Shown here: positions 36,607 through 64,000 of the stretch, in pieces
Layout of the letters: each line of letters begins with the position of its first letter
Numbering within the stretch: position 1 is the stretch's first letter
Origin: Chloroflexota bacterium
Lineage (GTDB): Bacteria > Chloroflexota > Anaerolineae > UBA2200 > JACIWT01
Reading direction: 5' to 3'
NCBI GenBank assembly: GCA_014360825.1
Contig: JACIWT010000001.1
Coordinates: 1-64,000, forward strand
Length of the DNA: 64,000 nt
Notes under the pieces: generated by a model
Told to the model about the DNA's origin: nothing
Seen by the model: only the letters and a program-made list of their open reading frames with translations
Database searches by the model: none
Program-made: the position numbers and the translations under genes

Positions 36607-39006
36607 GTGACTATGTCACCCACCGAAGTGGGTCTTTTTATGTTGTCAGCGGCAACAATCCTTTTTCAGATCACTCTTACCCGCATCTTTTCCGTCGCCC
36701 AGGGGTACCACTTCGCCTTCATGAGTGTGAGTTTGGCGCTGCTGGGCTCAGGGGCGAGCGGCTCTCTTCTGACACTTTTCCCCCATTGGGTGACTCGCGT
36801 CCGCGCAAGAGAAAGCACCCTCGGGGTGGTAGCCCTTTTCTTTTCTGCGAGTACTCTTGGGGCTTACCTGGTTATGAACTACATTCCCTTCGACTCCTAC
36901 CGCATCGCTTGGGAGCGGATACAGTTATTCTACCTGGTACTCTATTATCTGTCATTGACCGTGCCTTTCCTATGCGGCGGGTTAATCGTTGGGTTGTTGC
37001 TGGCTGCAGAGCAGAGTCGGGTAGGTCGCGTGTACGCGGTCAATTTGATTGGTTCCGCACTGGGTTGTTTTGCCGTCGTGATCTTGCTGCCCCTTTTGGG
37101 TGGCGCAGGCACAGTCGTGGCGGCGGCGCTCTTAGGCGCACTGGGCGCGCTTGCTTTCGACTGGGGCTGCCTGCAGCGCACGAAAACAGGGTGGATCTAT
37201 GGGATGGCGCTGGTTCTGGTAATCCTGCTCGCTATCCGACCAGCATTCTTGGAAGTGCGCATGTCGCCTTACAAAACGCTGAGCCAAGCGCTTCTGTATC
37301 CTGGCACCGAAGTGGTTTTCGAGAGATGGAACGCCTTCTCCCGCGTGGAGGTGGTACGCGGTGCTGGTATTCGCTCCGCACCAGGGTTGAGCCTGGCCTA
37401 CGGCGCACCTCCACCGCCACAATTGGGCCTTACCATAGACGGCGACAATTTGACGCCAATCACACGACAAACCTTGCCGGAAGACGCACATTTCTTAGAG
37501 TATCTGGCCCCTTCTGCGGCCTACGTCCTTGTGCCAAAAGCCCATGCTTTAGTTATCGAACCGCGGGGTGGACTGGACGTGCTCGTCGCTTATCAAGGTG
37601 GCGCACAGTCCATAGTAGTGGTCGAATCTAACCCACTGGTCGTAGCAGCCACGCGTGATAAGTTCGGTGATTATTCCGGCAGCATTTTTCGCGATCCTCG
37701 GATAGATTTTGTGGTTGCAGACTCCCGCAGTTATCTCGCCCGGACAAGTGCGACTTTTGACGTGATTGACCTTTGTCTGGTAGATAGCTATAAACCAGTC
37801 ACCTCTGGCGCTTATAGCCTTTCCGAAAACTATCTGTACACGATCGAATCCTTTGTTGAGTGTCTAGAACATCTCTCGGAGAACGGCCTGCTGGTGGCGA
37901 CACGTTGGTTACAGTTACCGCCCAGCGAGACGTTGCGCTTGTGGGCCATTGCCTTAGAAGCACTGGAACGAGTGGGGGTAAGCGATCCGGCAGCGCACGT
38001 AGCAGCAATTCGCAGCTGGTCCACTGGCACAGTATTTGTCAAACGAACACCTTTTACCCAGCAGGATATTGATGCTCTGCGTCGTTTCTGTGCCTCTCGC
38101 AAGTTCGACCTGGTGTATTACAAAGGGATGCCCGCATCAGAAGCAAACCGCTACAATGTTCTCCAAGAGCCAGTATACTACAATACCTTCTGCGAACTCG
38201 TCCAGAGCGAAGATCGGCGTGAGTTCTATCGAAATTACCCTTATGAAATCTCACCGCCTACCGATGACCGGCCTTTCTTCTTTCATTTCTTTAAGTGGGC
38301 ACAGACTCCGACGATTTTGCAGCATCTGGGGCAGTTCTGGTTGCCATTTGGTGGAAGCGGGTACCTGGTATTGATCATCCTGCTGACCTTCGCTATGCTT
38401 GCCTCGGTATTGCTCATCGCCGGGCCGCTGCTTGTCCGTCAGCGAGTAGTTCAAGCGGGCAAATATCGGGGACGATTTTTGCTCTACTTCCTGCTGCTGG
38501 GGTTGGCATTTTTCTTCGTGGAGATGCCCCTCATGCAGCGCTTTATATTGCTCTTAGGCCAACCTACTTATGCCTTCGCTGCAGTGCTCTTCGCTCTCTT
38601 GCTCTCATCAGGTGTGGGAAGTGCTCTCTCCCCACGGCTACCTCTGCGGGCGGCATTAGGGGCGCTCGTCGCGCTCCTTTTGGTGTACATTGCTTTCATG
38701 CCGACTCTATTCCAAGCGACATTGGCTGCACCGTTGGTGGTGCGCCTGATGGTCACTATCATTGCCTTGTGCCCACCCGGTTTTCTGATGGGCGTTGCTT
38801 TCCCCTCCGGGGTGCGCATTGTAGGGCGAATAACACCTGGTCTAGTGCCCTGGGTGTGGGCGGTGAATGGCTGTGCCTCGGTAATCAGTTCCATCCTGGC
38901 AGTGATGTTGGCCATGTCGGCAGGATTCTCGGCTGTCGCCGTAGCTGCTGTTCTCGCCTACGGTGGGGCTCTGTGTGTCCTGTGGTCATTTGCAGATCTA
39001 CGATAA
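36607..39006 (+). CDS. Membrane-embedded spermidine-synthase-like protein
   Basis: The 799-residue protein has about six N-terminal membrane helices, a Rossmann methyltransferase-like domain related to spermidine synthases (IEPRGGLDVLVAYQGGAQSIVVVESNPLVV, DPRIDFVVADSRSYLA, FDVIDLCLVDSYKP), and six or so C-terminal helices (LLYFLLLGLAFFFVEMPLMQRFILLLG). Proteins of this build are common in environmental bacteria but their product is unproven; the Asp pair for putrescine binding is not evident, so an altered substrate is likely. The start is GTG 36607 or ATG 36613. The MFS gene follows 20 bp later. Confidence 0.75.
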   Translation: MTMSPTEVGLFMLSAATILFQITLTRIFSVAQGYHFAFMSVSLALLGSGASGSLLTLFPHWVTRVRARESTLGVVALFFSASTLGAYLVMNYIPFDSYRIAWERIQLFYLVLYYLSLTVPFLCGGLIVGLLLAAEQSRVGRVYAVNLIGSALGCFAVVILLPLLGGAGTVVAAALLGALGALAFDWGCLQRTKTGWIYGMALVLVILLAIRPAFLEVRMSPYKTLSQALLYPGTEVVFERWNAFSRVEVVRGAGIRSAPGLSLAYGAPPPPQLGLTIDGDNLTPITRQTLPEDAHFLEYLAPSAAYVLVPKAHALVIEPRGGLDVLVAYQGGAQSIVVVESNPLVVAATRDKFGDYSGSIFRDPRIDFVVADSRSYLARTSATFDVIDLCLVDSYKPVTSGAYSLSENYLYTIESFVECLEHLSENGLLVATRWLQLPPSETLRLWAIALEALERVGVSDPAAHVAAIRSWSTGTVFVKRTPFTQQDIDALRRFCASRKFDLVYYKGMPASEANRYNVLQEPVYYNTFCELVQSEDRREFYRNYPYEISPPTDDRPFFFHFFKWAQTPTILQHLGQFWLPFGGSGYLVLIILLTFAMLASVLLIAGPLLVRQRVVQAGKYRGRFLLYFLLLGLAFFFVEMPLMQRFILLLGQPTYAFAAVLFALLLSSGVGSALSPRLPLRAALGALVALLLVYIAFMPTLFQATLAAPLVVRLMVTIIALCPPGFLMGVAFPSGVRIVGRITPGLVPWVWAVNGCASVISSILAVMLAMSAGFSAVAVAAVLAYGGALCVLWSFADLR

Positions 39007-49690: not shown

Positions 49691-51014
49691 GGAAAAGAAC
49701 GTTTGCCCTATCTGTCACGGCGCTGGTTATCTCCGCCGCGATGTTCCGCCGGGTCATCCCGATTTCGGGATCGCGATACCTTGCCGTTGTAAGGAGGAAG
49801 AACGGCGGCAGAAGCGCCTCGAACAATTACAACGATCCAGTAATCTCAGTCAAGTCGCACGGATGACCTTCGACTCCTTTGTCCCAGAGGGTTACGGCCT
49901 TACTGACGAACAGCGCGATAATCTACGTCGGGCTTATGAGACAGCCCGCAGATATGCCGAAAATCCCGACCGCTGGCTGATCCTGAAGGGTGCCTTTGGG
50001 TGCGGCAAGACTCACCTGGCAGCGGCTATTGCCAATGAACAATTGGCGCGGGGACGGGAAGTCCTTTTTGTGGTCGTCCCCGATTTGCTCGATCACTTGC
50101 GTGCTACGTTTGCTCCCATCAGCCGGGTTTCCTACGATGAATTATTTGACGCTGTGCGCAATACGCCCTTGCTTATTCTGGACGATTTGGGCACCCAGAG
50201 CACGACACCTTGGGCGTACGAGAAACTATACCAGCTCCTGAACTATCGTTACAACGCACGCTTGCCCACCGTCATCACTACGAATCAAGAATTCGAGGAC
50301 ATCGATATCCGGCTGCGTTCCCGTATAGTAGATCCGGATATTTCCACTATCGTGCATATCCAGGCTCGCGATTTTCGTGCCGCTGCTGAGACCACACACT
50401 TCGACCTCAGTTCACTTGGCCTGCACGCCGACCAGACTTTCGACCGCTTCGATTTGCGTACCGGGTTGCCACAAGAAGAAAGGACGAATCTCAGGCGCAC
50501 CTATGAGGCCGCCAAAAAGTTCGCCGCCAAACCCAAAGGTTGGTTTGTGCTGACCGGAGTTTCGGGTTGTGGCAAAACACACCTTGCGGCTGCCATTGCC
50601 AATGCACTCCAAGCCCAAGGACGCCCCGTCCTGTTCGTGGTGGTGCCCGATCTCTTGGATTATCTGCGCGCCGCTTTTAGCCCCACCAGCCACATTTCTC
50701 TCGACCGCCGCTTTGAGGAAATCCGCAATGCACCCTGCCTCATCCTCGATGACTTGGGCACTGAAAACGCCACCCCTTGGGCCAAAGAAAAAATGTTTCA
50801 ACTCATTAACCACCGCTGGAGTGCGCGTCTGCCTACGGTGATAACCACGCAGCAAAGCGTAGAAGACTTGGAACCCCGGTTGCGTTCGCGCCTGCTCGAT
50901 CCATCCCGATGCCAAGTTTGGGCTATCATCGCGCCCAGTTACTTCGGACCACAAGACAGTCGTGCCACGCCAACCAATCGGGCTAAACGTCGTGGCGTGG
51001 GCGTGCGACGCTGA
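49668..51014 (+). CDS. DnaC/DnaI-like helicase loader with two tandem AAA+ domains
   Basis: The 448-residue protein has a zinc finger CPIC...CRC (Cys13, 16, 39, 41) and then two successive copies of a DnaC/IstB-type AAA+ ATPase. Walker A is GAFGCGKTH (108-116) and GVSGCGKTH (297-305); Walker B is LLILDDLGT and CLILDDLGT; RLRSR (215-219, 404-408) provides Arg fingers in both. Sensor 1 is VITTN in copy 1 but VITTQ in copy 2. Normal DnaC and DnaI have one AAA+ domain. It shares an operon with dnaB and the DnaD-like gene, so it should load DnaB at origins. The tail (about 425-448) is basic. Confidence 0.85.
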   Translation: MPTTSNTEEKNVCPICHGAGYLRRDVPPGHPDFGIAIPCRCKEEERRQKRLEQLQRSSNLSQVARMTFDSFVPEGYGLTDEQRDNLRRAYETARRYAENPDRWLILKGAFGCGKTHLAAAIANEQLARGREVLFVVVPDLLDHLRATFAPISRVSYDELFDAVRNTPLLILDDLGTQSTTPWAYEKLYQLLNYRYNARLPTVITTNQEFEDIDIRLRSRIVDPDISTIVHIQARDFRAAAETTHFDLSSLGLHADQTFDRFDLRTGLPQEERTNLRRTYEAAKKFAAKPKGWFVLTGVSGCGKTHLAAAIANALQAQGRPVLFVVVPDLLDYLRAAFSPTSHISLDRRFEEIRNAPCLILDDLGTENATPWAKEKMFQLINHRWSARLPTVITTQQSVEDLEPRLRSRLLDPSRCQVWAIIAPSYFGPQDSRATPTNRAKRRGVGVRR

Positions 51015-51030
51015 CCGTCCGGAGCCATCC

Positions 51031-52191
51031 ATGGCCCTCGCTCGGAAAGACATAATAATAAGCAGCCTCTGTCGCCTGCTCCGCCCCTTTTTCCATCTAA
51101 CGACATCGTCTATCCCCCCACGCCAGATTGCGGCTATTCTCATCATCAAGCCCTGCTGCCGCGGCGATGTGCTTATGACTACGCCGCTTATCACTACTTT
51201 ACGCCAGGCTTATCCCAAAGCACGACTTGACTTTGCTGTTGGCCCTCATTCGCGGGCTATGGTGGAGGCGAACCCGAAGTTGGATGGCCTGGTGGACTGC
51301 GGCCAAGTGGGCAGTGGGCGATATAGCCTACGTGACTATCTGGCACTGGTCAACCGAATACGGCAGGGTCATTATGAGGCCTGCTTTGTCCCCGACCGTT
51401 CCCCGCTTATTACGCTCCTGCCTGCGCTCGCGGGTATCCCGTGGCGTGTGGGATTAGACAGCCATGGGCGGGGATTTTCACTGTCTGTTCGCATTCCAGT
51501 CAATGAGATAAAACACGAGGTGGAACTTTACTTGGACTTGGCGCGGGCAATAGGCATTCCAGTTCAGAATCCCCATTTGGAGTTTTACCCGATAGATGAA
51601 GATAGGGCGCGCGTGGCCAGCCTTTTGGCAAGGGCTGGGGATATGAGTTCAGGGCTCCAGCGCACAGTGGTCATCCATCCTGGCGGTGGCGTTAATCCCG
51701 GCATGGTACTCTCTGCAAAGCGCTGGCCGCCAGAGCGATTTGGAGCAGTTGCCCAACGATTGTCCGATGCTGGACATACGATCATCCTCGTGGGTGGGCC
51801 AGACGATATACCTATTGCAGCAGCAGTGCGAGCGGCGATGAAACGCGAGCCGATAGATCTGACGGGTCGGCTCTCATTTGGGGAACTAGGCGCACTGATG
51901 GAGAGAGTGCACATGTTCATCGGCAACGACACAGGTGCATTGCATTTGGCGGTCGCTATGGGAGTGCCAGTGGTCGCTCTCTATGGCCCCTCCGACCCCC
52001 GTATATATGGACCATACGGAGGTCGCAGCGTGGTCCTGTGGCATCCACCCGAATGTAGCCCTTGTCTGGTAAGCGGACGCTGGAATCAGGCTTGCTGCGA
52101 TTACCAATGTATCCGTGCGATTGCAGTTGAGGAGGTGTATGAGGCTGCGCTCTCATTGCTGGAGGCAGAAACAAAGCCCCCATCTTTGTGA
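51031..52191 (+). CDS. GT9 (heptosyltransferase-family) glycosyltransferase
   Basis: The 386-residue protein has AAILIIKPCCRGDVLMTTPLITTLR at its acceptor side, then VVIHPGGGVNPGMVLSAKRWPP and FIGNDTGALHLAVAMGVPVVALYGPSD at the nucleotide site, all GT9 features. CSPCLVSGRWNQACC near the end is a Cys cluster that is found in part of the family and may bind metal. ATG 51031 after GGAG is used, 17 bp past the loader gene. It likely belongs with the following glycan genes rather than with replication. Confidence 0.88.
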   Translation: MALARKDIIISSLCRLLRPFFHLTTSSIPPRQIAAILIIKPCCRGDVLMTTPLITTLRQAYPKARLDFAVGPHSRAMVEANPKLDGLVDCGQVGSGRYSLRDYLALVNRIRQGHYEACFVPDRSPLITLLPALAGIPWRVGLDSHGRGFSLSVRIPVNEIKHEVELYLDLARAIGIPVQNPHLEFYPIDEDRARVASLLARAGDMSSGLQRTVVIHPGGGVNPGMVLSAKRWPPERFGAVAQRLSDAGHTIILVGGPDDIPIAAAVRAAMKREPIDLTGRLSFGELGALMERVHMFIGNDTGALHLAVAMGVPVVALYGPSDPRIYGPYGGRSVVLWHPPECSPCLVSGRWNQACCDYQCIRAIAVEEVYEAALSLLEAETKPPSL

Positions 52192-52227
52192 AACGTGTAC
52201 TGAATGTTCGATCTTGTATGCATGAGG

Positions 52228-52262
52228 CAACGGCAGGAACTCCAGGTGTTTGTCGGCCGTTG
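52228..52262 (+). other. Hairpin between GT9 and glycosidase-like genes
   Basis: CAACGGC (52228-52234) and GCCGTTG (52256-52262) form a 7-bp stem with a 21-nt loop; no U tract follows. It may be a weak transcript element. Confidence 0.25.
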
Positions 52263-52296
52263 AATAGAGTGCAAACCACCATAGGAGGACGTTCCT

Positions 52297-54021
52297 TTGT
52301 CTAACCCTGTGCGAGGTATGTTGATCCTGTTTCTTCTCCTGGCCTTGGTGATCCTGGTTGCCTGGCAGGCGAGAGATTATATCACAGATACTCTTGTAAA
52401 TCTCACCGGGGAAGAGGATCACGTTGAGCAAATCAAAGGGTTAGGCGCACTGATCCTCTTGCGTTTCACCCAGGCTCCGCTGGAACTAGCCCCCTATGTG
52501 CCTATTCAGCACACGGGCATCAACCCGTTCGGGATCAATACCTTTCTGGAGCAGGAAGTCGAACCTGAGAAAGTGGAGCGTTCGCTACGCATGATACGAG
52601 ATGCAGGCTTTCACTGGATCCGCCAAGAGTTCCCTTGGGAGGACATTGAGATCAGTGGCAAAGGAGACTTCTGGGACCACAAATGGAACGTAAGTGCCTG
52701 GGCTAAGTACGACCGGATCGTAGAACTGGCGAATCAATATGGTTTGGAAATCATCGCTCGACTGGATAACCCACCTGCTTGGTCGCGTGCCCGTGGCGAT
52801 GAGATCGGCACCCGCGCCCCGCCAGACAATTTTGAGGATTTCGGTGACTTTGTGTACGCCGTGGTCTCTCGCTATAAGGGCAAAATCCGCTATTACCAGA
52901 TCTGGAACGAGCCAAATATCTATCCAGAATGGGGCGAACAGCCCCCCGATCCGGAGGGCTATGTGGAGTTGCTGCGGATCGCATACCAGAGAGCAAAAGA
53001 AGCCGATCCCAATTGCGTGATCCTCTGCGCAGGGTTGGCCCAGACGATCGAGCACAACGATCGTAACATGGACGATCTCATGTATCTCCAGCGCATGTAT
53101 GACGCTGGCGCTGCGCCCTATTTCGACATCATGGGCGTGATGGCTTACGGCCTCTGGACTGGGCCGACCGACCGGCGAGTTAGCCCTGATCGGACGAATT
53201 TTGCCCGCCCCCAGCTCATTCGCGACATCATGGTGCGCAATGGTGATGCTCACAAGCCTATCTGGGCTACTGAGATCGGGTGGAACGCACTGCCGTCAGA
53301 TTTCCCAGGCGTAGCCAATTTTGGGCGCGTTACGCTGGAGAAACAGGCTGAGTACGCCGTTCAGGCCTACCAGCGTGCCCAGGATGAATGGCCGTGGATG
53401 GGAGTGATGAATTACTGGTTCTTTAAACGCGCTACTGATGCAGAGCGTGACCAGAGTTTTTACTATTTTCGCCTAGTCGAGCCAGATTTCACGCCCTTGC
53501 CAGTCTATGAGGCCCTGAGGGACTATGCTCATCAACCCCCGGTGATGTCTATCGGCTATCATCAAGAGAGCCATTGGTCATTGCAGTACTCCGGAAACTG
53601 GATCACTGTACGTGATGACCAGGCAGTCCTAGGCGCTTACAAGATAGCCACAGAACCCGAAAGCACCTTGAATTTTGTGTTCAAGGGAACAGACTTGGAC
53701 CTCGTTGTCCTACGTCAGCCTGAAAGCGGACGAATCCTCGTCTCGATCCAGGGCTGTAGTCCGAAGGAGATAGACCTACACTCACCAACGTTAGTCTATG
53801 GGGAGGTGATTCCCCTGGCACGTGGCCTGCCAAACCAGAAACACAGCGTCGAGATCCGCCTACTATCAGGCACGGCGGCTATAGATGGAGTAATTGTCCG
53901 GCGAGGCGAGGCGTGGGGACACAATGCGTTTGTCGCTGTGCTCTTTTTTCTGCTTTTGCTCGCAGTGGTGGTGGCTCGCAGTTGGATTAAGCATTCGAGC
54001 AAAGGGTACGCAAATGCTTGA
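52297..54021 (+). CDS. Membrane-tethered glycoside hydrolase-like protein (clan GH-A)
   Basis: The 574-residue protein has an N-terminal helix (about 8-24), a (beta/alpha)8 domain of about 330 residues, a beta-sandwich domain (about 420-540) and a C-terminal helix (about 545-563). YYQIWNEPNIYPEWG supplies the acid/base Glu205 and PIWATEIGWN the nucleophile Glu326, as in GH39 and GH5-type retaining glycosidases. It would act outside the cell while bound by both ends. It sits between GT9 and GT39 genes and may trim or remodel a glycan made by them. The TTG start 52297 follows AGGAGGACG. Confidence 0.78.
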   Translation: MSNPVRGMLILFLLLALVILVAWQARDYITDTLVNLTGEEDHVEQIKGLGALILLRFTQAPLELAPYVPIQHTGINPFGINTFLEQEVEPEKVERSLRMIRDAGFHWIRQEFPWEDIEISGKGDFWDHKWNVSAWAKYDRIVELANQYGLEIIARLDNPPAWSRARGDEIGTRAPPDNFEDFGDFVYAVVSRYKGKIRYYQIWNEPNIYPEWGEQPPDPEGYVELLRIAYQRAKEADPNCVILCAGLAQTIEHNDRNMDDLMYLQRMYDAGAAPYFDIMGVMAYGLWTGPTDRRVSPDRTNFARPQLIRDIMVRNGDAHKPIWATEIGWNALPSDFPGVANFGRVTLEKQAEYAVQAYQRAQDEWPWMGVMNYWFFKRATDAERDQSFYYFRLVEPDFTPLPVYEALRDYAHQPPVMSIGYHQESHWSLQYSGNWITVRDDQAVLGAYKIATEPESTLNFVFKGTDLDLVVLRQPESGRILVSIQGCSPKEIDLHSPTLVYGEVIPLARGLPNQKHSVEIRLLSGTAAIDGVIVRRGEAWGHNAFVAVLFFLLLLAVVVARSWIKHSSKGYANA

Positions 54022-56404
54022 CCGGTCCACTCGGACGCGAATAATGCTTGCCACTATTCTGGTCCTGGCACTGGGGTTGCGCCTGTACCGACTAGATGGC
54101 CAGAGTTTCTGGAACGATGAGGGGACAAGCGTTGCCTTAGCAGGGCGCAGCCTCGCCGTGATCACGCGTAGTGCAGCCCATGATATCCATCCGCCGTTAT
54201 ATTATTATTTGTTGCATTTTTGGATCGGTTTGGCGGGGAGCAGCGAGGCCGGTGCGCGTTCATTGTCCGTGCTGACCGGGGTGCTGGTCGTAGCCACCAC
54301 TTATTTGCTCGGAAAACAGCTTTTCGGCTCAAACATCGGGCTTCTTGCAGCACTATTATCGGCCTTCTCTCCATTGGGCGTCTATTACTCTCAAGAGGCG
54401 CGCATGTATATTATGGTTACGCTGTGGGCCGTGTTATCCATTTACTTACTCGTGCGCTTGCTTGACCGGCCAACCTATTTGATGGCCACCTTCTACTTGG
54501 CGACCACAACCCTGGCTCTGTACAGCCACTACTTTGCGGCAGTGCTTTTGGTGATCGAGAATCTTATTTTCCTGGCGTGGTTTGTTGGCCAGTACAGGCG
54601 CCGCCTCAGGTCATTAGCCAAGTGGCTGCTTCTCCAAGTCATCATCCTCGCCCTTTACATCCCCTGGGTTTGGATGACCCGGGAACAATTGGGTATCTGG
54701 CCTGCTATCAGCCAACCCCTGTCCTTGCAACAACTCCTCGCCGATCTGGCTCGTGTGTTCTCGCTGGGCCTTTCCGTTCCCGCAAAAACGACCCCTGTGG
54801 TGCTCATTTTTACGGCGCTATTGTTGATCGGGTTGATGCCCCCGGTTCGTTACCACAAAAGCAATAGAAAGAAAGAAGGAGTCTTTGCGCCCCGCTCGTT
54901 GGGTGCACATATCATCGTTGTACTCTACTTGGCTATACCCATTGGTGCCTTATATCTTGCCTCGCTGCGCCGGCCCATGTACGACCCCAAGTTCCTCCTC
55001 TGGGTAATGCCGGCTTACTATGTTTTGGTGGCGCGGGGAATTTGTACCCTCTTGCCAGAACAGCGATCATACCGCGACGTAAAGGCATGGCTCCGCGCTT
55101 TGTTAGCAGGCATGGGGTTTGCCTTTACGCTACTGGCCCCGCTGACTTCTCTTGCGAATTACTACTTCGACAGCCAATATGCTCGTGATGATTACCGGAG
55201 TATTGCGCATTATATCGAGGTCATCGAAAAAACGGGCGACGCTATTCTCATCAATGCACCAAGCCAAATTGAGACTTTCATGCTCTATTATCGCGGCGGG
55301 TTGCCAATCTACCCTTTGCCCAGGCAACGCCCGCTGGACGAAGATGCCACCCAGGCTGAATTGAAGGAGATGATTACCGGACGCAATCGCATTTTCGCTA
55401 TCTTCTGGGCTACCGATGAGAGTGATCCGCACCGTTTTGTAGAGACATGGTTAGACGAACACGCATACAAGGCTATTGACTCTTGGTACGGAGATGTGCG
55501 CTTCGTTATCTACGCAGTTCCCTGCCAATCGCTCGGCGAACGGATTGTTCACCCAGTGGACGCTCGCTTGGGAGATAGCATTCGGTTCCGGGGTTACAGC
55601 CTACTCACCCCTGAAGTCGAAGCAGGGGATATTTTGCAACTTGCTCTGTTCTGGGAAGCGACTAGTCCGATTGGGCACCGATACAAGGTTTTCGTCCATG
55701 CTATAGACGACCACGGTCACATTGTGGGTCAGCGCGATGCGGAGCCAGGCGGTGGGGCTCGACTGACTACTACGTGGACGCCGAGGGAACTGATAGTGGA
55801 TAATTACGGAGTGCCTATTCTCCCTGCCGTTCCACCCGGTCGCTACCAAATCGAAATTGGCATGTATGGCCTGGATGATGGCGTCCGCCTCCCTATTTAC
55901 GTGCCTGGCAAGGCAGTGGATGACAAACTCCTGTTGGAGCCCGTGGTAGTGCGGCGTGGGTCTGCGCCACCACTGGCCATTCTGGATTTGCAGCACCACC
56001 GCGAAGCAGATTGTGGTCCCCTGCAATTGCTAGGGTTCACCCTGGTTCGCCTCGGTTTCGAGCACGACCCCAATGTGCCACTGCGCCCTGGGGATATTGC
56101 TCACCTGACGCTTTTCTGGCTCGCCAAAGAAACACCCCCATCGGATGCCACCCTAACCTTCCGCCTGCACGACTATTCCGGTCACCCCATCGCCGAGTGG
56201 CACACCTCGGTAACCGAAGGCTTCTACCCAGCATTGATATGGCTGCCAGGAGAGATTGTGCGGGATCAGCACAACCTGCCCCTTCCCAGCGGGCTGACAC
56301 CTGGCCGTTACGACTTGCATTTGAGCCTCGAGTACGCGCCCTCGGCAGGCATTCCCTCCGCCACGCTGATCTTAACAAAGATAACTCTGGAGGAGGGCGG
56401 ATAA
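54014..56404 (+). CDS. GT39-family membrane glycosyltransferase with two C-terminal beta-sandwich repeats
   Basis: The 796-residue protein resembles the 3979-6804 gene: first helix, then FWNDEGTSVALAGRSL with the catalytic acidic pair, HPPLYYYLLHFWIG and SPLGVYYSQEARMYIMV in the membrane domain, and two copies of the beta-sandwich repeat (near 540-660 and 680-790; LALFWEATSPIGHRYKVFVHA, LTLFWLAKETPP). ATG 54014 is used; a longer frame from 53894 is shadow of the preceding gene. It overlaps the glycosidase-like gene by 8 bp. It is likely a polyprenyl-phosphate-sugar-dependent transferase on the outer face. Confidence 0.82.
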   Translation: MLDRSTRTRIMLATILVLALGLRLYRLDGQSFWNDEGTSVALAGRSLAVITRSAAHDIHPPLYYYLLHFWIGLAGSSEAGARSLSVLTGVLVVATTYLLGKQLFGSNIGLLAALLSAFSPLGVYYSQEARMYIMVTLWAVLSIYLLVRLLDRPTYLMATFYLATTTLALYSHYFAAVLLVIENLIFLAWFVGQYRRRLRSLAKWLLLQVIILALYIPWVWMTREQLGIWPAISQPLSLQQLLADLARVFSLGLSVPAKTTPVVLIFTALLLIGLMPPVRYHKSNRKKEGVFAPRSLGAHIIVVLYLAIPIGALYLASLRRPMYDPKFLLWVMPAYYVLVARGICTLLPEQRSYRDVKAWLRALLAGMGFAFTLLAPLTSLANYYFDSQYARDDYRSIAHYIEVIEKTGDAILINAPSQIETFMLYYRGGLPIYPLPRQRPLDEDATQAELKEMITGRNRIFAIFWATDESDPHRFVETWLDEHAYKAIDSWYGDVRFVIYAVPCQSLGERIVHPVDARLGDSIRFRGYSLLTPEVEAGDILQLALFWEATSPIGHRYKVFVHAIDDHGHIVGQRDAEPGGGARLTTTWTPRELIVDNYGVPILPAVPPGRYQIEIGMYGLDDGVRLPIYVPGKAVDDKLLLEPVVVRRGSAPPLAILDLQHHREADCGPLQLLGFTLVRLGFEHDPNVPLRPGDIAHLTLFWLAKETPPSDATLTFRLHDYSGHPIAEWHTSVTEGFYPALIWLPGEIVRDQHNLPLPSGLTPGRYDLHLSLEYAPSAGIPSATLILTKITLEEGG

Positions 56405-56459: not shown

Positions 56460-56488
56460 TTGACATTTAACCCGAATAGCAGTATCTT
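56460..56488 (+). promoter_or_regulatory. Promoter of the resB operon
   Basis: TTGACA (56460-56465) and TATCTT (56483-56488) are separated by 17 bp. The expected start lies immediately before a tandem repeat. Confidence 0.7.
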
Positions 56489-56527: not shown

Positions 56528-57565
56528 ATGGGGCGGATTAGGTTCTTTTACCTGCGTTGCCTGGGGCTGTTGAGCTCAAGCAAACTGGCCTTTCCACTAC
56601 TGGTTGCTCTGACGATCGGTGCGATCATAGGAACACTCTTTCCCCAACGACCGTCCGTGAGGGATGAAACGCTCTTGAGTCTCTGGCAGGATGCAGTGAG
56701 TGCCAGGTACGGCGGCTATACCAGGATCTTCGATGCCTTTCACTCCGCATGGTTTTTGGGTTTGGTTGCTGCACTCATAGTAAACATAATAGTATGTACC
56801 ACCACCCGGCTTCGCTCTATCTGGCGTGCGCTGACCCGCACTAGCATGGAGATCACCGATGCACTGCTGACGCACTGTGAGGCTCGTTTCAGTTTCACTG
56901 CCAGGGACCCGGACTCCGCTGTTAAGATAATCGCGCGCAATCTTAAACAGGCAGGCTTCCGTGTGCTATATCAGGAACAGGGTAAAGGAACGCACATCTA
57001 TGCCGAGCGACATGGCTGGGCCCGACTAGGCACTATCCTCGTCCATGGCCCCATTATCCTCATCGTGCTGGCTGCCACTTGGGGCCAAGTGAAGGGTTGG
57101 CGGATAGAGGCATTGGCTCTACCACCGGGCGTTGAAACCCCAGTAGAGCGAGCGGGTTTCCAACTGCGAGGAGAGAGTTTCGAAATCATACCCTATCCCG
57201 ATGGCAGTGCCCGGGATTTCCGCGCCCAGGTTGCCGTATTAGAAGCGGGCCGAGTTGTCCAATCCAGCACCATTCGTATCAACGAACCCCTCTCGTACCA
57301 CGGTGTTGGAATCTATCTCGTCAGTTTCGATGAGGACGAAACGGGATGCCTTTATCCCATAGCGATGGCCGTCTACGATCCGAGTTACCCGTTTGTGATA
57401 TCCGGCGCATTGTGCTTTGTAATCGGTGCCATGCTTCGTTTCTACCTCCCTGTGCGCCGGGTCTGGTGCCGCGTGGGCCGAGATGGAGTGGTCGAAATAG
57501 GCGCGGATGCCAAATACTGGCTCAAAAAATGGGCAGATGAATTGCGGCCTGCAATTGGAGGTTGA
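56528..57565 (+). CDS. resB: ResB-like cytochrome c biogenesis protein
   Basis: The 345-residue membrane protein has LGLLSSSKLAFPLLVALTIGAIIGTLFPQ, the ResB/Ccs1 first helix, FHSAWFLGLVAALIVNIIVCTTTRL, and a third helix (WARLGTILVHGPIILIVLAATWG) with a conserved His for heme, then an outside domain and a last helix. It works with CcsA in system II heme delivery to apocytochrome c. ATG 56528 after GGAGGCCGAA is used. It overlaps ccsA by 4 bp. Confidence 0.86.
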   Translation: MGRIRFFYLRCLGLLSSSKLAFPLLVALTIGAIIGTLFPQRPSVRDETLLSLWQDAVSARYGGYTRIFDAFHSAWFLGLVAALIVNIIVCTTTRLRSIWRALTRTSMEITDALLTHCEARFSFTARDPDSAVKIIARNLKQAGFRVLYQEQGKGTHIYAERHGWARLGTILVHGPIILIVLAATWGQVKGWRIEALALPPGVETPVERAGFQLRGESFEIIPYPDGSARDFRAQVAVLEAGRVVQSSTIRINEPLSYHGVGIYLVSFDEDETGCLYPIAMAVYDPSYPFVISGALCFVIGAMLRFYLPVRRVWCRVGRDGVVEIGADAKYWLKKWADELRPAIGG

Positions 57566-58392
57566 GGGTGCCGGGTGAGAGTGCCTTCATCTCGCTGGCC
57601 TGTGTGATCACAGGGGTAGGCTTCCTGGCCCTCCTGATAGCCTTGATCAGGCGGCAAGAGACGCTGGACCGGTCTGGCCAAGTGCTGACTGTGGTTGCAT
57701 CACTGGCAATGTTAGGCAGCGTCATTGCCCGCGGGTTAGCAACGGGGCATTGGCCGATGGCGACCACCTACGAGTTTGCATTGGCTTTCGCTTGCAGCAC
57801 TCTCCTCGCCGCACTCCTTTTGGCGCGGAGGCTTGGTTCTGGACGCGGCCTGGTGCTCGCCCTGATGATGGCATTGCTTATCGAAATCTATGCGCTCCTA
57901 GGGGTTCCAGATGGGGATAAGATTGCTCGACCGTTGCTCCCAGCGTTGCAGACGATATGGTTTGAGATGCACACCTTCACAGCGGCACTGGCCTATGGTG
58001 CAGGCGCGGCCACAGGGGGGCTGGGATTGATGCGGATCCTCTCCCATCTGGGCTTATGGCAGGACTCGCTACCAGAAGCAGAGCGGCAGGATGAGGTTAT
58101 CGAAAGCGGCGTGGGCTTCGTTTTCTTATTCCTGAGTCTAAGCATTATCACTGGGGCCATTTGGGCTCAGAAGGCCTGGGGAAGTTACTGGAGTTGGGAC
58201 CTTAAAGAGACTTGGGCGTTGATTACATGGTTCGTGTACTTGCTCTACTTTCATAGACGTTCAGCGCGTCATTGGCGCGGGATGCCCCTAGCGACGTTGA
58301 CGGTATTGGGCCTGGCTTGCATTCTATTTACCTACTTGGGTGTAGGACCGTTGGCTCGTGCGGTAGGGGTATACAGTTTACACGCGTATTGA
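57562..58392 (+). CDS. ccsA: CcsA/ResC-like cytochrome c assembly protein
   Basis: The 276-residue protein has eight hydrophobic segments and the Trp-rich heme-handling signature IWAQKAWGSYWSWDLKETWALITW, with flanking His (MHTFTAAL, YFHRRSARHW). It carries heme across the membrane and attaches it with ResB. The start is TTG 57562 (or GTG 57568), overlapping resB. The next gene, a radical SAM enzyme, starts 4 bp after its stop. No cytochrome c gene is in the window. Confidence 0.9.
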   Translation: MRVPGESAFISLACVITGVGFLALLIALIRRQETLDRSGQVLTVVASLAMLGSVIARGLATGHWPMATTYEFALAFACSTLLAALLLARRLGSGRGLVLALMMALLIEIYALLGVPDGDKIARPLLPALQTIWFEMHTFTAALAYGAGAATGGLGLMRILSHLGLWQDSLPEAERQDEVIESGVGFVFLFLSLSIITGAIWAQKAWGSYWSWDLKETWALITWFVYLLYFHRRSARHWRGMPLATLTVLGLACILFTYLGVGPLARAVGVYSLHAY

Positions 58393-58396
58393 TTGG

Positions 58397-59614
58397 ATGA
58401 TAAGCAAGGTGAAATTTACACGGCGAGAGTTCATTGGATTGGCAGGCGCTAGCCTGGGGTTGCTGGGCGTACGCGCTTTGCTGTCAGGGGGAACCAGGCA
58501 AGAGACTGAAGAAACACCGCTGCCACCGAACGCGCGCGAAGCGATGTATTATGCTGGCCTGAGCGGCGATTTACGTTGCGAAGTCTGCCATGGAAATGCC
58601 CTACCGTCTAAGGTGCTCTATTGCCACATTTCCCACGCGAAACGCTATGTTAAATGCCTGCTTTGTCCGAGGGGGTGCGTGATTTCAGAAGGACATCGAG
58701 GCGATTGCCGGGTACGCGAGAATCGAGGCGGCAAACTGTACACGATGGTTTTCGGTAATCCTTGTGCGATGGCGATTGACCCCATTGAAAAGAAACCCTT
58801 CTATCATTTCCTACCCGCAAGTGCCGCTTTCTCTATTGCCACGGCGGGATGTAACTTGCACTGCCTCTATTGCCAGAACTATGACATCTCGCAAGTGCCA
58901 CCGGAGCAGACAGAGAATTACGATCTGCCCCCAGAGAAAGTGGTGGCCGCCGCTTTAGGCTACGGTTGTCCTGTCATTGCTTACACCTATTCGGAACCAA
59001 CGGTATTCTATGAATACACGCTGGCGACGGCAAGGCTTGCACGAAAAGCGGGCATCCGTAATGTGGTCGTCAGCGCTGGGTATATGAACCCTGACCCACT
59101 GCGGGAACTCTGTGGTGCGGTGGATGCGATCAAGATCGATTTCAAAGGTTTCAGCGATGATTTTTACAAAAACGTGTGCTCGGCGACTTTACAACCCGTG
59201 TTGGATGGGATGAAACTCATCCGCGATTCCGGAATTCACCTGGAAATTGTTACTCTGGTCGTACCCGGCATGAACGACTCTGAGGAAAACCTGCGTGATA
59301 TGGCGCGCTGGATTATAGATAACTTAGGGCCAGACGTGCCCACCCATTTCTCTCGTTTTTTCCCTCGCTACAAACTCACTAACCTCCCAGCCACCCCCGC
59401 CGCGACAGTTGAGCGGGCACGAGCCATCGCCTTAGAAGAGGGCATCCACTACGCTTACACCGGAAACTTGCCCGGAAGCCCAGGGGATCACACCTATTGC
59501 GCACGCTGTGGTAAGATTCTGATCCAGCGTTTAGGCTTTCAGGTGATGGAAAACAACATAGTGGACGGCAAATGCCGCTATTGTGGCCAGCCGATACCTG
59601 GAGTGTGGCAATGA
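58397..59614 (+). CDS. AmmeMemoRadiSam radical SAM enzyme with Tat-type N-terminus
   Basis: The 405-residue protein has the radical SAM cluster motif AGCNLHCLYCQN (Cys152, 156, 159), an extra Cys array before it (CEVC at 61-64, CLLCPRGC at 87-94, DCRV at 104), as in PflA-like and AmmeMemoRadiSam enzymes, and a C-terminal zinc ribbon (CARCGK ... CRYCGQ). The N-terminus reads FTRREFIGLAGASLGLLG, a twin-arginine signal with hydrophobic core, unusual for a radical SAM enzyme, which needs SAM and a reductant. It overlaps the Memo-AMMECR1 gene by 4 bp, confirming the three-part system. Its reaction is unknown. Confidence 0.88.
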   Translation: MISKVKFTRREFIGLAGASLGLLGVRALLSGGTRQETEETPLPPNAREAMYYAGLSGDLRCEVCHGNALPSKVLYCHISHAKRYVKCLLCPRGCVISEGHRGDCRVRENRGGKLYTMVFGNPCAMAIDPIEKKPFYHFLPASAAFSIATAGCNLHCLYCQNYDISQVPPEQTENYDLPPEKVVAAALGYGCPVIAYTYSEPTVFYEYTLATARLARKAGIRNVVVSAGYMNPDPLRELCGAVDAIKIDFKGFSDDFYKNVCSATLQPVLDGMKLIRDSGIHLEIVTLVVPGMNDSEENLRDMARWIIDNLGPDVPTHFSRFFPRYKLTNLPATPAATVERARAIALEEGIHYAYTGNLPGSPGDHTYCARCGKILIQRLGFQVMENNIVDGKCRYCGQPIPGVWQ

Positions 59615-61149
59615 GTGGAGTGTACCGTGTTTGGGTAACGCTGGCCTTGGTACTGCTTCTCGCAGGGTGTGTCACGACACCGACAGTTACCGAGCCCACA
59701 GCCACAAAGCCCGCCCCGTTACCCTCCGCCACCCCTATTCCATCTGAGAAAGTCCGTCCAGCCATGTTCGCGGGCCTTTTTTATCCCGCAGATCGGGGCG
59801 AATTACAGAGAACGGTGGATGACTTCTTGGCCCAGGTGCAACCAACTCAAGGCACCCCCATTGTCCTGATGGTACCACACGCTGGCTACACCTTCTCCGG
59901 TCCAGTAGCGGCCTACGCCTACCGCCAGATCCAGGGCGTGTCCTACGATGCCATAGTGGTCATCGGCAACAACCACAGTGTCGCCGACTTCTCGGCAGTC
60001 TCTATCTATAGCGAGGGCGCTTTTGCCACACCCCTGGGAGAGGTGCCAGTAGACGAGGCACTGGCTAAAGCCCTTCTGGATGCTGACGAAACGGGGAGAT
60101 TGGTTGCCGAACCTCGTGTACACTATTACGAACACTCCATCGAGGTCCAACTGCCATTCCTGCAACGAGCCCACCCCGGGTGTAAGATCGTGCCCATCAT
60201 GATGGGCCAGCCCACCGCAGAGAATTGCGAGGCTTTGAGCAAAGCTTTGGTGAAAGTGCTAGCCGGGCGACAGGCGCTGATCATTGTCAGTTCCGATATG
60301 GCCCACTATCCAACCTACAATGATGCTGTGCGAGTGGACAATGCTACACTGAGCGCTATTTGCTCTATGGACCCGCAGGCAGTGCTCCAAAATGATCAGC
60401 GGTACATGAGCGCTGGCATTCCCAATCTAGTGTGTACACTGTGCGGCCTGGGGCCAGTGCTCACCGGGATGATGGTGGCAAGAGAACTCGGCGCAAACGA
60501 GGTCACAGTGCTGAAGTATGCCAATTCTGGCGATGTGCCAGCCGGAGAGAGCAATCTTGACCGCGTAGTTGGCTACAGCGCGGTGATGTTCTGGCATTGG
60601 AATCCGCCTAACTTCACGCCGGAGCAGAAAGCAGAACTGCTGGCCTTGGCGCGGCGCACATTGGAAAGGTACTTGACGGAGCACGAGGTCCCTGTGGAAT
60701 CCCCTTTAGAGTATGCGATGGAGAGATGCGGCGTCTTCGTCACCTTGACCAGAGACGGCCAGTTGCGCGGTTGCATCGGGCGCGTTATCCCGCATGAGCC
60801 ACTCTACCACACCATACAGGAATGCACTGTCTTGGCGGCAACCGAGGACCAGCGCTTCCCTCCGGTGAGTGTCGCAGAACTGGGGGATATTCGCATCGAG
60901 ATCTCAGTGCTCTCACCTCTGCATCCACTTAACAATATTGGTGAAATCCAAATAGGCCGTGATGGCCTGGCCATCCTGCACGGGGAGCATTTTGGCTTGC
61001 TGTTGCCACAGGTGCCCGTGCAGGAAGGATGGGATCGTGATGAATATCTCCGGGCACTTTGTCGCAAAGCGGGTCTGCCCGAAGACGCTTGGGCGAAGGG
61101 TGCCACGCTGTACCGTTTCACTGCAGAGGTTTTCGGAGAGAGCGAGTAG
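59611..61149 (+). CDS. Memo-AMMECR1 fusion lipoprotein (AmmeMemoRadiSam proteins B and A)
   Basis: The 512-residue protein has a lipobox LAGC (Cys20), a Thr/Pro linker, a Memo domain (about 48-330) and an AMMECR1 domain (about 338-510). Memo residues include VPHAGYTFSGP (His90), GNNHS (His122), EHSIEVQLPFLQ, SSDMAHY (Asp229, His232) and TLCGLGPV (Cys278), which match the metal site of human MEMO1. AMMECR1 carries the invariant LRGCIG (385-390). The fused pair plus the radical SAM gene form one system. ATG 59611 overlaps the upstream stop; an earlier start would add residues before the signal peptide. Confidence 0.9.
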   Translation: MSGVYRVWVTLALVLLLAGCVTTPTVTEPTATKPAPLPSATPIPSEKVRPAMFAGLFYPADRGELQRTVDDFLAQVQPTQGTPIVLMVPHAGYTFSGPVAAYAYRQIQGVSYDAIVVIGNNHSVADFSAVSIYSEGAFATPLGEVPVDEALAKALLDADETGRLVAEPRVHYYEHSIEVQLPFLQRAHPGCKIVPIMMGQPTAENCEALSKALVKVLAGRQALIIVSSDMAHYPTYNDAVRVDNATLSAICSMDPQAVLQNDQRYMSAGIPNLVCTLCGLGPVLTGMMVARELGANEVTVLKYANSGDVPAGESNLDRVVGYSAVMFWHWNPPNFTPEQKAELLALARRTLERYLTEHEVPVESPLEYAMERCGVFVTLTRDGQLRGCIGRVIPHEPLYHTIQECTVLAATEDQRFPPVSVAELGDIRIEISVLSPLHPLNNIGEIQIGRDGLAILHGEHFGLLLPQVPVQEGWDRDEYLRALCRKAGLPEDAWAKGATLYRFTAEVFGESE

Positions 61150-61154
61150 GAAAC

Positions 61155-62330
61155 ATGACGGCCGACGTCCTCTCGCTGGAAACGGATTTCAAGGAACGGC
61201 TTTTGTCCCTCAAGCCGCTGGATCTCTGCACCTATGAGTCGCTCCTCCGTACACGCTATCCAGAGACGGAGGGGCTTTTCTCCATCCCAGGGCTGTTAGA
61301 CCACACACAGCAGGTGATGGAAGCAGTGCGCGCTAACGCAGGAACACTGGATACGGCGACGGCGCAGGCACTTTATTTAGCGGCATTACTGCACGCAGTC
61401 GGGCAAAGTGGAGATCAACTGTCCGACTCCATAGGTGTCACCGTGGAACGAGCACGGGAAGTCTGCTTCAGGCTAGGCATCAAACCTTCCGTGCGCGATG
61501 ACGTGGTTTACCTAGTACGCCATCAACACATCCCCTGGCTCTATGGAGTCCGGCATTATAATGTGCTTCGCTATTTACAACTATCCGCTATGCTGAACAC
61601 ACAGGCGCTCTATCTACTCGCCCGCGCGGATATAGAGGCGGATGGCGAACGTTCTAGAATCAGATCAACGCACCCACTGGAGGCTTTCCGGCGCACTTGC
61701 GAGGAGGCCGGTGTCTTTGGTCAGCGGCCGCAAATTTGGCTTAGCGAGGAGGATCTGGATGCTCTGGGTGTCCATGAACCAGATGAACGGCTCCGGCTGC
61801 GCCACGAAGTGTTGGAGAGGCAACTGCGCGGCTTGTTCGATAACCCTGCCCAGGCCCGTGCTTGGGTTTCTGCCATCGTCAGGCGGCCACATGGCACCTT
61901 GTATCTAACTGTGGGGGTGCCAGGCAGTGGCAAGACAACCTGGGTACAACAATCTCTCCCAGGTGTGCGACGGATCTCAATGGACGATCAGCGGGAACTC
62001 CTCCTGGGTAGCCGCAGCGACCAAAGCCTAAACCCAGAAGTCTTTCGTGCCTGCTCGTACCGGCTTCACGAGGCGTTGGCACGAAACGAGACAGTCATCT
62101 GGGATGCACAAAGCCACACCTTGGCTCAGCGGAGAAACGTGCTCCGCGCTGCACGAGGCCATCATGCAACTGTGATCATCATACATTTTGATGTGCCCCT
62201 GTGCGTGGCGTTAGAACGCAATCGAATGCGGGAGTTTGCTGTGCCCGATGAGGTGATAATCCGCAGTTACAGGCGCTTGTTGGAGCCCCGGGATTATGAG
62301 GCAGAAGAAATCCGGCGCATCATCGCCTAG
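61155..62330 (+). CDS. Degenerate HD domain fused to a polynucleotide-kinase-like P-loop domain
   Basis: The 391-residue protein has an HD-type helical region (about 40-165: His50, LLHAVG at 79-83, VRHQHIPW, ARADIEAD) and a C-terminal kinase domain (Walker A GVPGSGKT 254-261; WDAQSH 316-321; ERNRMREF...VP.EVI.R at 354-370), similar to T4 Pnkp and AAA_33 kinases. The HD pair itself reads His-Ala, so phosphohydrolase activity is doubtful. The kinase half may phosphorylate nucleic acid ends or small molecules. ATG 61155 is 6 bp after the Memo-AMMECR1 stop. It is the fifth gene of the operon. Confidence 0.75.
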   Translation: MTADVLSLETDFKERLLSLKPLDLCTYESLLRTRYPETEGLFSIPGLLDHTQQVMEAVRANAGTLDTATAQALYLAALLHAVGQSGDQLSDSIGVTVERAREVCFRLGIKPSVRDDVVYLVRHQHIPWLYGVRHYNVLRYLQLSAMLNTQALYLLARADIEADGERSRIRSTHPLEAFRRTCEEAGVFGQRPQIWLSEEDLDALGVHEPDERLRLRHEVLERQLRGLFDNPAQARAWVSAIVRRPHGTLYLTVGVPGSGKTTWVQQSLPGVRRISMDDQRELLLGSRSDQSLNPEVFRACSYRLHEALARNETVIWDAQSHTLAQRRNVLRAARGHHATVIIIHFDVPLCVALERNRMREFAVPDEVIIRSYRRLLEPRDYEAEEIRRIIA

Positions 62331-62361
62331 TGGCACAGATTTCTCCCGGAAAGGAAAACTC

Positions 62362-63138
62362 ATGACCGAACAGAGCATACAGCCAGATGCCTTCTACTTT
62401 ACCAGCGGCCCTGTGGGGTGTCTGCTTCTCCACGAGTTTATGGGTTCGCCGGCAGAGATGCGATCAATGGGAGAGTACTTGGCAGAGAAAGGATTCACCG
62501 TGAGCGGACCGCTCCTGCCGGGTCACGGTACAGAGCCCAACAATCTGTCCAACATTCATTGGCGGGACTGGTGGGCAGCGGCAGAGGAAGCCTTCTATGA
62601 ACTACGAAACAAGTGCCATCTCGTCTTTGTAGCCGGTTTCTCTATGGGCGCGTTACTCGCACTGCGTCTGGCTGCTTACCATCCAGTACGTGGGCTTATC
62701 CTTATGGCTCCGGCTATTGCCGAAGGGAATCTGCGATCCGGATTGACGCTTCTCAGACATTATGCTCGGGGCGGGTGCGTGCCCCTTGAGAGAGATGACA
62801 GTATTGGGGAGAGTAAAATGTGCCTCAATATCTGGCGTTATGATAAGGCACCTATCCGCGCCATTTTTCAAGTCTATCGGTTGCAGAAAGAGGTGATGCC
62901 TTTTCTGAGCCGCGTTGTTGTTCCCACACTGATCTTCCAGGGGCAGTACGACCAAATACTCGGGCCCGATGCCGGGGCCCTGACTTATGAGGCAATCGCC
63001 TCCAGCGACAAGGAACTCGTATTTTTAGAACACTCCGGTCACTTCTTAACCGTGGGGGCCGATCGAGAATTCGTCTGGCGTAAGGCCGCCGAATGGATGA
63101 TGGCCCGGGCCGGCGGGCGGATCAGCACCGCCTTGTAG
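62362..63138 (+). CDS. Alpha/beta-hydrolase, carboxylesterase (Est30-like)
   Basis: The 258-residue hydrolase shows LLLHEFMGSPAEMRSMGEYLAEKGF (oxyanion region), the nucleophile elbow GFSMGALLAL, Asp in FQGQYDQILGP and His in EHSGHFLTVG, completing a Ser-Asp-His triad. It resembles Geobacillus Est30 and monoacylglycerol lipases. ATG 62362 follows AAAGGAAAACTC. It is the last gene of the operon, 31 bp after the kinase gene. Confidence 0.88.
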   Translation: MTEQSIQPDAFYFTSGPVGCLLLHEFMGSPAEMRSMGEYLAEKGFTVSGPLLPGHGTEPNNLSNIHWRDWWAAAEEAFYELRNKCHLVFVAGFSMGALLALRLAAYHPVRGLILMAPAIAEGNLRSGLTLLRHYARGGCVPLERDDSIGESKMCLNIWRYDKAPIRAIFQVYRLQKEVMPFLSRVVVPTLIFQGQYDQILGPDAGALTYEAIASSDKELVFLEHSGHFLTVGADREFVWRKAAEWMMARAGGRISTAL

Positions 63139-63174: not shown

Positions 63175-64000
63175 TTATACTGGATCCTCTTCGCCTCCAT
63201 ATCGGCTGACTAAAACCAATACCGCGAGAGTCAGTGCGCCCAGTAAAATGAGAGCGATCAGTTTGTAGATGCGTGAGGAGATGAGCAGAGCGAGGGCACC
63301 AAAGAAGGCGCAAAAGGCCCAGTAAATCAGCACAATAACGCGGTGAGAGATGCCTATATCCAGCAGCCGGAAATGGAGGTGAGCCCGATCGCCCAGGCCA
63401 GGGGAGCGACCGCGCCGGAGACGATCTACGATTAGCCACGCCACGTCCATAATCGGGACGCCTAAGACGAGCAAGATAGTTGCCATGCGCGCGCCGCCGA
63501 CTATGGAGAGAGTGGCTACTGCGTAGCCCAAGAAGAAGGAGCCCGAACTACCCATGAAAACCTTGGCTGGGTGAAAGTTATACGGCAGGAAGCCCAAAGT
63601 CGCCCCCAGTAATGCGAGTGGCAATAGTGAAACCGTGTATTGTCCCTCACGGATCATGTGGACGGCCAAGACAGTGGCAGTAATGGCCGCCACTCCCGCT
63701 GCTAACCCATCTAGTCCATCTAAGAAGTTGAAGGTGTTGACCATGCCCACGATCCAGAAAATAGTGAAAGCCGCCGTTATAAACCAGGGGAATACGACGA
63801 GTTGGTTGGAAAAGGGGCTCGTGACGCGCTCGATGAAAACCTCCGTGCCAATGGCAATGAGCGCAGCAATTATCTGGAAAATGAGTTGGGTGGGTGCCCC
63901 CAATTCGTGTCGGTCATCCCATAGACCAACGACGAATAGGAAAGTCGAACCCAACAAGATGCCGAAGACATGCAGCGGCTCCTTTGGGTTAGGCCCCTCT
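63175..64000 (-). CDS. WecA/MraY-family UDP-sugar:polyprenyl-phosphate glycosyl-1-phosphate transferase (5' end outside window)
   Basis: The frame is open to the window edge on the minus strand, giving at least 275 residues. It contains LFVVGLWDDRHELGAPTQLIFQ (DD motif for Mg), WIVGMVNTFNFLDGLDGLAAG (NxxNxxDGLDGL, the WecA/TagO/Rgy signature), GFLPYNFHPAKVFMGSSGSFFLGY, and the cytoplasmic loop RGRSPGLGDRAHLHFRLLDIG with the HLH motif. It moves a sugar phosphate onto a polyprenyl carrier, starting a surface polymer. The N-terminal two or so helices are missing from view. It is convergent with the esterase operon. Confidence 0.88.
   Translation of the reverse strand, partial: EGPNPKEPLHVFGILLGSTFLFVVGLWDDRHELGAPTQLIFQIIAALIAIGTEVFIERVTSPFSNQLVVFPWFITAAFTIFWIVGMVNTFNFLDGLDGLAAGVAAITATVLAVHMIREGQYTVSLLPLALLGATLGFLPYNFHPAKVFMGSSGSFFLGYAVATLSIVGGARMATILLVLGVPIMDVAWLIVDRLRRGRSPGLGDRAHLHFRLLDIGISHRVIVLIYWAFCAFFGALALLISSRIYKLIALILLGALTLAVLVLVSRYGGEEDPV

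Follow-up and report, generated by a model that had tools for sequence, protein, structure and literature searches.

A 64,000-nucleotide stretch of DNA from a Chloroflexota bacterium (GCA_014360825.1, contig JACIWT010000001.1, positions 1–64,000; hereafter the window) carries the cytochrome c assembly genes resB and ccsA directly ahead of genes for the radical S-adenosylmethionine (SAM) enzyme and the fused Memo and AMMECR1 proteins of an AmmeMemoRadiSam system. We propose, with a probability of about 0.62, that this locus encodes a cell-surface AmmeMemoRadiSam system in which a dedicated CcsB-CcsA (ResB-CcsA) pair matures the radical-SAM enzyme into a c-type haemoprotein whose haem serves to relay electrons. 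The sequences directly establish the gene order, the families, the conserved motifs, the linkage and the phylogeny. The parts of the proposal that go further differ in strength: export of the enzyme is predicted from its sequence with near certainty and covalent attachment of haem is very probable on the same basis, while a role of ResB-CcsA as the dedicated maturase of this enzyme is likely, and an electron-relay function of its haem is somewhat favoured. That all of this combines, so that a c-type haemoprotein with a CcsB-CcsA pair of its own works as a radical-SAM enzyme outside the membrane and is driven by way of its haem, we regard as an even bet.

A predicted haem motif in the radical-SAM enzyme

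The radical-SAM enzyme is encoded at 58397–59614 (+ strand, ATG start) and matches TIGR04337 with 373.5 bits (cut-off 220), the match beginning only at residue 81. Ahead of this domain stands a twin-arginine signal, FTRREFIGLAG, in which the arginine pair is followed by a hydrophobic helix (residues 8–30, TRREFIGLAG..., 58418–58486), and then the series R-C61-E-V-C64-H65-...-Y-C-H-x-x-H80-...-C87. The sequence C61-E-V-C64-H65 (58577–58591) is a CXXCH motif, at which haem c is attached. This insert is the decisive feature of the enzyme and was absent from an earlier reading of the window made from the letters alone (the sequence-only reading). ResB/CcsA-type machines attach haem to CXXCH on the outer side of the membrane (PMC10663686). 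With its N-terminal twin-arginine motif and hydrophobic stretch the enzyme has the features of a predicted substrate of twin-arginine translocation (Tat), and with CXXCH, an export signal and conserved axial-ligand positions those of a putative c-type haemoprotein. Weak matches to PF10518 were found in relatives of the enzyme only. Because no Pfam match to a cytochrome c domain (PF00034 or PF13442) was found in the enzyme, we describe the segment as a haem-bearing insert and not as a cytochrome c domain.

The four cysteines C87/C90/C94/C104 (58655–58708), which directly follow the haem segment, and the radical-SAM motif C152-x3-C156-x2-C159 (PF04055, 58850–58873) are invariant across 64 radical-SAM enzymes of the family, exported or not, so the exported forms look catalytically intact. 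The four-Cys site is common to the whole family and is probably an auxiliary Fe-S or Zn site. In an AlphaFold2 model built from a 64-row alignment (predicted local distance difference test (pLDDT) 93.3, predicted TM-score (pTM) 0.87), residues 61–65 form a short helix, and the closest solved fold to the model is the pyruvate formate-lyase (PFL)-activating enzyme (3cb8, TM-score 0.81 by target).

Conservation of the signal and the motif

Relatives were sampled from 400 Chloroflexota genomes and then by scanning the genomes of 84,980 species with the N-terminal part of the enzyme, which gave 80 loci (L numbers below denote loci of the survey). Patterns taken from close relatives guided the draw, and the sample therefore has little bearing on the frequency of the trait in the whole family. 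In the 400 genomes, the window enzyme itself was followed in rank by two 63%-identical proteins that share its signal and motif and are each preceded directly by resB and ccsA. The arginine pair was present in all 35 CXXCH-bearing enzymes (34 by script and L093 by eye) compared to 17 of 78 without CXXCH (Fisher p about 1e-16, uncorrected for relatedness). The CXXCH-bearing enzymes come from Chloroflexota (clade I) and from records labelled Bacteroidetes, Melioribacter, Deltaproteobacteria, Syntrophus, KSB1, Calditrichaeota, Acidobacteriota and others (clade II), this second branch being about 45–52% identical to the window enzyme. In a phylogenetic tree they group into what is essentially a single clade, within which two losses are nested, and in the members without the motif after loss the entire Cys pair is gone, not the His alone. 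The pattern C-x2-C-H-x(8-19)-H-x4/5-[VI]-x-C-x2-C-x3-C is fixed over both branches. Among 20 representative CXXCH rows, R9, R10, C61, C64 and H65 are invariant, and H80 (58634–58636), the candidate distal axial ligand at the fixed spacing H-x4/5-[VI]-x-C, is at least 90% conserved.

These residues also bear on a different explanation of the segment, namely that the exported enzyme has an additional zinc-ribbon or Fe-S site in CXXC...CXXC instead of a haem site, and that resB and ccsA serve other cytochromes. The 22 residues between C61/C64 and C87/C90 are a ribbon-like spacing, the four cysteines after CXXCH are a metal site in all enzymes of the family, and clade II lacks the linkage to resB/ccsA described below. 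However, relatives that lack the insert already have C87, C90, C94 and C104 as a full set, a ribbon needs neither the invariant His65 nor the nearly invariant His80, and the haem c ligase genes are linked in clade I and not in the motif-less relatives. Nor was another client found in the host genome: the cytochrome families PF00034, PF13442 and PF09699, the only three covered, had no match in the assembly (97.9% complete), which leaves the window enzyme as the sole candidate client for haem c identified in this host. Other host cytochromes as clients of ResB/CcsA were set aside on the strength of that search of three Pfam families, which was not exhaustive. Taken together, we consider the ribbon explanation quite improbable.

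The host genome encodes four radical-SAM enzymes of this type, the window enzyme, a predicted Tat lipoprotein without CXXCH (on C31), and two without signals (on C3 and C42), as well as two ResB/CcsA sets (on C1 and C15). The gene for the second exported enzyme (L126:8514-9899, G000:C31) lies beside two BadF/BcrA-type ATPase genes.

Linkage to the haem c ligase genes

The product of resB (ccsB; 56528–57565, + strand, ATG start; PF05140, 199 bits) is half of a System II haem c ligase, and ccsA (57568–58392, + strand; PF01578, 119 bits) follows it. The curated cut-offs of both Pfam families were passed, and CcsA scored just under that of the CcsA equivalog TIGR03144 (176.4 bits, cut-off 187.6). 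A System II ligase is recognized by the WWD, P-His1/2 and TM-His residues of CcsA and the TM-His of CcsB (PMC10663686), and alignments located all of these in the window proteins. CcsA has the WWD motif (WGSYWSWD), P-His1, TM-His1 and P-His2 (SLHAY) and aligns with Helicobacter hepaticus CcsBA (7s9y, E 2.5e-16), and ResB keeps the TM-His (LVHGPIIL), aligned with the other linked copies.

The link between resB/ccsA and AmmeMemoRadiSam that the sequence-only reading had drawn from this one locus recurs across Chloroflexota in our survey of gene neighbourhoods. CcsA was encoded next to the enzyme in 22 of the 31 scorable clade-I loci (ResB and CcsA both in 19), compared to none of five loci of Tat-bearing close relatives without CXXCH (L062, L177–L180), which had neither gene nearby (Fisher p 0.005, uncorrected for relatedness). 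A follow-up draw of 395 genomes from the class of the L047 genome, which serves as the fair test of the linkage, yielded 12 new CXXCH enzymes, all 12 with signal and motif and 10 with ResB and CcsA immediately upstream. The resB-ccsA-radical-SAM-Memo/AMMECR1 linkage is beyond chance and recurs in many genomes. The genes downstream in the window, for a kinase and an esterase, do look like ordinary co-directional neighbours, and resB/ccsA might likewise have come to stand beside AmmeMemoRadiSam by chance or operon packing; the newly drawn loci and the many genomes with the linkage led us to reject this as hardly credible.

A PF01578 haem-handling protein was found in all 32 tested genomes with a CXXCH enzyme and was absent from two Omnitrophota genomes in which the enzyme has neither signal nor motif. 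Where the linkage is missing, unlinked cytochrome c assembly genes exist. Many clade-I genomes have a CcmF-sized PF01578 open reading frame (ORF) elsewhere (e.g., G410 of L047, G413 of L050, and G414), which we read as System I by ORF size only. Because of these additional ORFs, the linked ResB-CcsA pair looks dedicated to the radical-SAM enzyme.

The sequence-only reading had suggested extracytoplasmic redox or tailoring chemistry on haem, a cytochrome or a surface molecule. Extracytoplasmic redox chemistry holds as a direction, with a recurring resB/ccsA link and export signals on two proteins. The idea that the radical-SAM enzyme and Memo-AMMECR1 tailor the haem delivered by ResB-CcsA, or a cytochrome, draws on gene adjacency and on the precedent that some radical-SAM enzymes, such as AhbD, act on porphyrins (PMC10452713). 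Against it, the sequence and fold of the enzyme are far nearer to those of the PFL-activating enzyme than to AhbD, clade II has the system without linked resB/ccsA, and the enzyme itself bears CXXCH. We consider tailoring very unlikely and replace it with the reading in which the enzyme is itself a predicted c-type haemoprotein and client of ResB/CcsA.

Predicted export of the Memo-AMMECR1 partner

The Memo-AMMECR1 fusion (59611–61149, + strand, ATG start) matches TIGR04336 with 250 bits (cut-off 26) and TIGR04335 with 168.7 bits (cut-off 99), so that the radical-SAM, Memo and AMMECR1 components of the window all score above the NCBIfam cut-offs for an AmmeMemoRadiSam system. Its N-terminus contains a lipobox, LLAGC, with Cys20 at 59668–59670. 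With the partner thus predicted to be a lipoprotein, export seems to extend to the whole module. The sequence-only reading had likewise noticed export-type leaders on two of the proteins. Scored by simple hydrophobicity and motif rules and not by a trained predictor, a signal peptide or lipobox was present on Memo (usually fused to AMMECR1) in 39 of the 40 loci with an export or membrane signal on the radical-SAM enzyme and in 6 of the 19 without one.

A proposed electron route at the cell surface

In the mechanism that we propose, the enzyme would fold with its Fe-S cluster in the cytoplasm, be exported by Tat and then be retained at the membrane's outer face. The ResB-CcsA pair encoded upstream, apparently kept for this client, would transport haem and ligate it to C61-x-x-C64-H65, the iron being bound by His65 and probably His80. 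The haem would relay electrons in place of cytoplasmic flavodoxin or ferredoxin, joining the radical-SAM site to redox carriers in the membrane or outside the cell, and the Memo-AMMECR1 lipoprotein on the same face would be the catalytic partner of the enzyme. Electron relay is the most likely role of the haem because in sequence the haem adjoins the four-Cys site, which is followed by the SAM cluster. Independent hints of an electron input from outside come from two other loci. The Elusimicrobia enzyme of L103 (L103:2399-3985) carries FMN_bind (PF04205, 64 bits) at its N-terminus, following a membrane anchor, and in Syntrophaceae L094 one stretch (L094:1535-8963) combines resB, ccsA, memo and ammecr1 with the genes for a triheme c7 cytochrome and for a radical-SAM enzyme bearing a Tat signal.

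The haem could also be real and act as an O2, NO or redox sensor, or as a structural element, gating a surface enzyme without relaying electrons. The segment is short, adjoins the catalytic domain and is variable in sequence except for the ligands, all of which would suit such a role. However, the nearly invariant second His suggests a six-coordinate haem, typical of electron transfer, and the FMN_bind domain and the triheme cytochrome accompany other exported enzymes of the family. We therefore hold a sensory or structural haem to be unlikely.

In L103, a small DsbD/ArsG-like membrane protein and then a spermine-synthase protein are encoded downstream. In 29 of the 80 loci, which span many phyla, the gene for a membrane protein of 700–800 amino acids that contains a spermine-synthase domain (PF01564) lies within approximately 8 kb of the radical-SAM gene. 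It is found near AmmeMemoRadiSam genes in L047, L050, L067, L076, L081, L086, L090, L091, L093, L097, L110, L103, L055–L085 and others, and also in several of the newly drawn loci. The host genome encodes two proteins of this kind, and the gene for one lies in the window (36607–39006), approximately 18 kb upstream. That this neighbour is tied to SAM or SAM products is speculation.

Several observations weigh against the proposed surface system. Radical-SAM chemistry outside the membrane needs both SAM and a very low-potential electron, and we found a source of neither; we know of no SAM source outside the cytoplasm. The confidence of the AlphaFold2 model drops over residues 61–80 (block means 68 and 61). 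A signal-bearing Memo-AMMECR1 stands beside a radical-SAM enzyme without a recognizable signal in six loci (L055, L057, L072, L075, L111 and L113). The linkage is not universal, since a linked ccsA is absent from 9 of the 31 clade-I loci and from all scorable clade-II loci, and with only three motif changes on the tree there are too few for a tree-corrected test of motif against linkage. P-His2 or WWD is missing from some of the linked CcsA copies (L008/L037/L009, L044 and L173), which are evidently in decay. In L008 and L037, the Memo-AMMECR1 gene behind the radical-SAM gene is frame-broken and the linked CcsA lacks P-His2, which marks a decaying copy.

Other genes of the locus

The six tandem + strand ORFs described by the sequence-only reading were all recovered at its coordinates, and NCBIfam and Pfam profile matches bear out the families that it had named. 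Its junctions also stand from ccsA onwards: a gap of 4 bp to the radical-SAM gene, a 4-bp overlap of the latter with the Memo-AMMECR1 gene, and gaps of 5 bp and 31 bp after that. The 4-bp overlap that it gave for resB and ccsA requires a TTG start at 57562. The GTG at 57568 is preferred because an SD-like (Shine-Dalgarno-like) GGAGG stands at a normal distance, approximately 6 nucleotides before it, and this start leaves a 2-bp gap. The single promoter suggested for all six genes was not borne out: there is a single sigma-70-like site at 56460–56488 (10/12), and a consensus scan of the region gave no enrichment over shuffled sequence (2 promoter-like sites compared to a mean of 4.5).

The HD and AAA_33 (polynucleotide-kinase-like) protein (61155–62330, + strand, ATG start; PF13671, weak PF01966) and the alpha/beta hydrolase (esterase-like; 62362–63138, + strand, ATG start; PF12146) had been counted as parts of the system. 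No relative of the kinase gene was found in any related locus compared, and the hydrolase gene had only two weak matches among them (E 2e-4 or worse). We rejected both as members of the module, and they look like passengers beside it. Surface-glycan genes flank the operon (50962–56404 and 63175–63999), with products resembling a GT9 heptosyltransferase and a PMT_2 mannosyltransferase and one with a weak GH5 match; a flanking protein encoded on the minus strand reads like a WecA/MraY-type transferase.

Significance and comparison with known systems

Radical-SAM enzymes are generally regarded as cytoplasmic, where SAM, flavodoxin and Fe-S repair are located, and phrase searches of the openly accessible literature for one that is exported, periplasmic, secreted or extracellular returned no paper. 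A conserved exported enzyme with a haem c site and its own ligase would, if true, put this chemistry in an unexpected compartment, and suggests that some bacteria wire radical-SAM chemistry to the cell surface. Such an enzyme would require a supply of SAM and low-potential electrons outside the cytoplasm, and would mean that many phyla have exported AmmeMemoRadiSam systems fed by alternative redox inputs (haem c, an FMN domain or a triheme cytochrome). Because a surface location limits the possible substrates, the system would also offer a way into the unsolved problem of what Memo and AMMECR1 do; both proteins have human homologues.

A 2019 paper on Memo reportedly placed these proteins in a context of "nucleotide base and isoprenoid modification". 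The Memo-Ammecr1 systems are those of Burroughs et al. 2019, as cited in PMC7159879. The window shares with AmmeMemoRadiSam all three components, far above the TIGR04335, TIGR04336 and TIGR04337 cut-offs, and intact radical-SAM and four-Cys sites; no biochemical function of this system was found in the openly accessible literature, in which AmmeMemoRadiSam surfaced only in five passing mentions. The window differs in the Tat signal and CXXCH insert added to the radical-SAM enzyme, in the fusion of Memo and AMMECR1 in a predicted lipoprotein, and in the preceding resB-ccsA. The PFL-activating enzyme (3cb8, 3c8f) shares the catalytic-domain fold and radical-SAM motif but is a cytoplasmic protein, and it has no haem motif, no additional four-Cys site and no zinc-ribbon-like part at the C-terminus. 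The WWD, P-His1, P-His2 and TM-His residues are those of System II cytochrome c biogenesis (CcsB-CcsA/ResB-ResC; PMC10663686), whereas the predicted client here is a radical-SAM enzyme and no classical cytochrome, and the genome holds a second set (on C15). Finally, the dedicated haem c maturation factors such as those for NrfA and SirA (PMC6976685, PMC12285233) are likewise encoded for one special client, but the client in the window has an ordinary CXXCH motif and is not a reductase.

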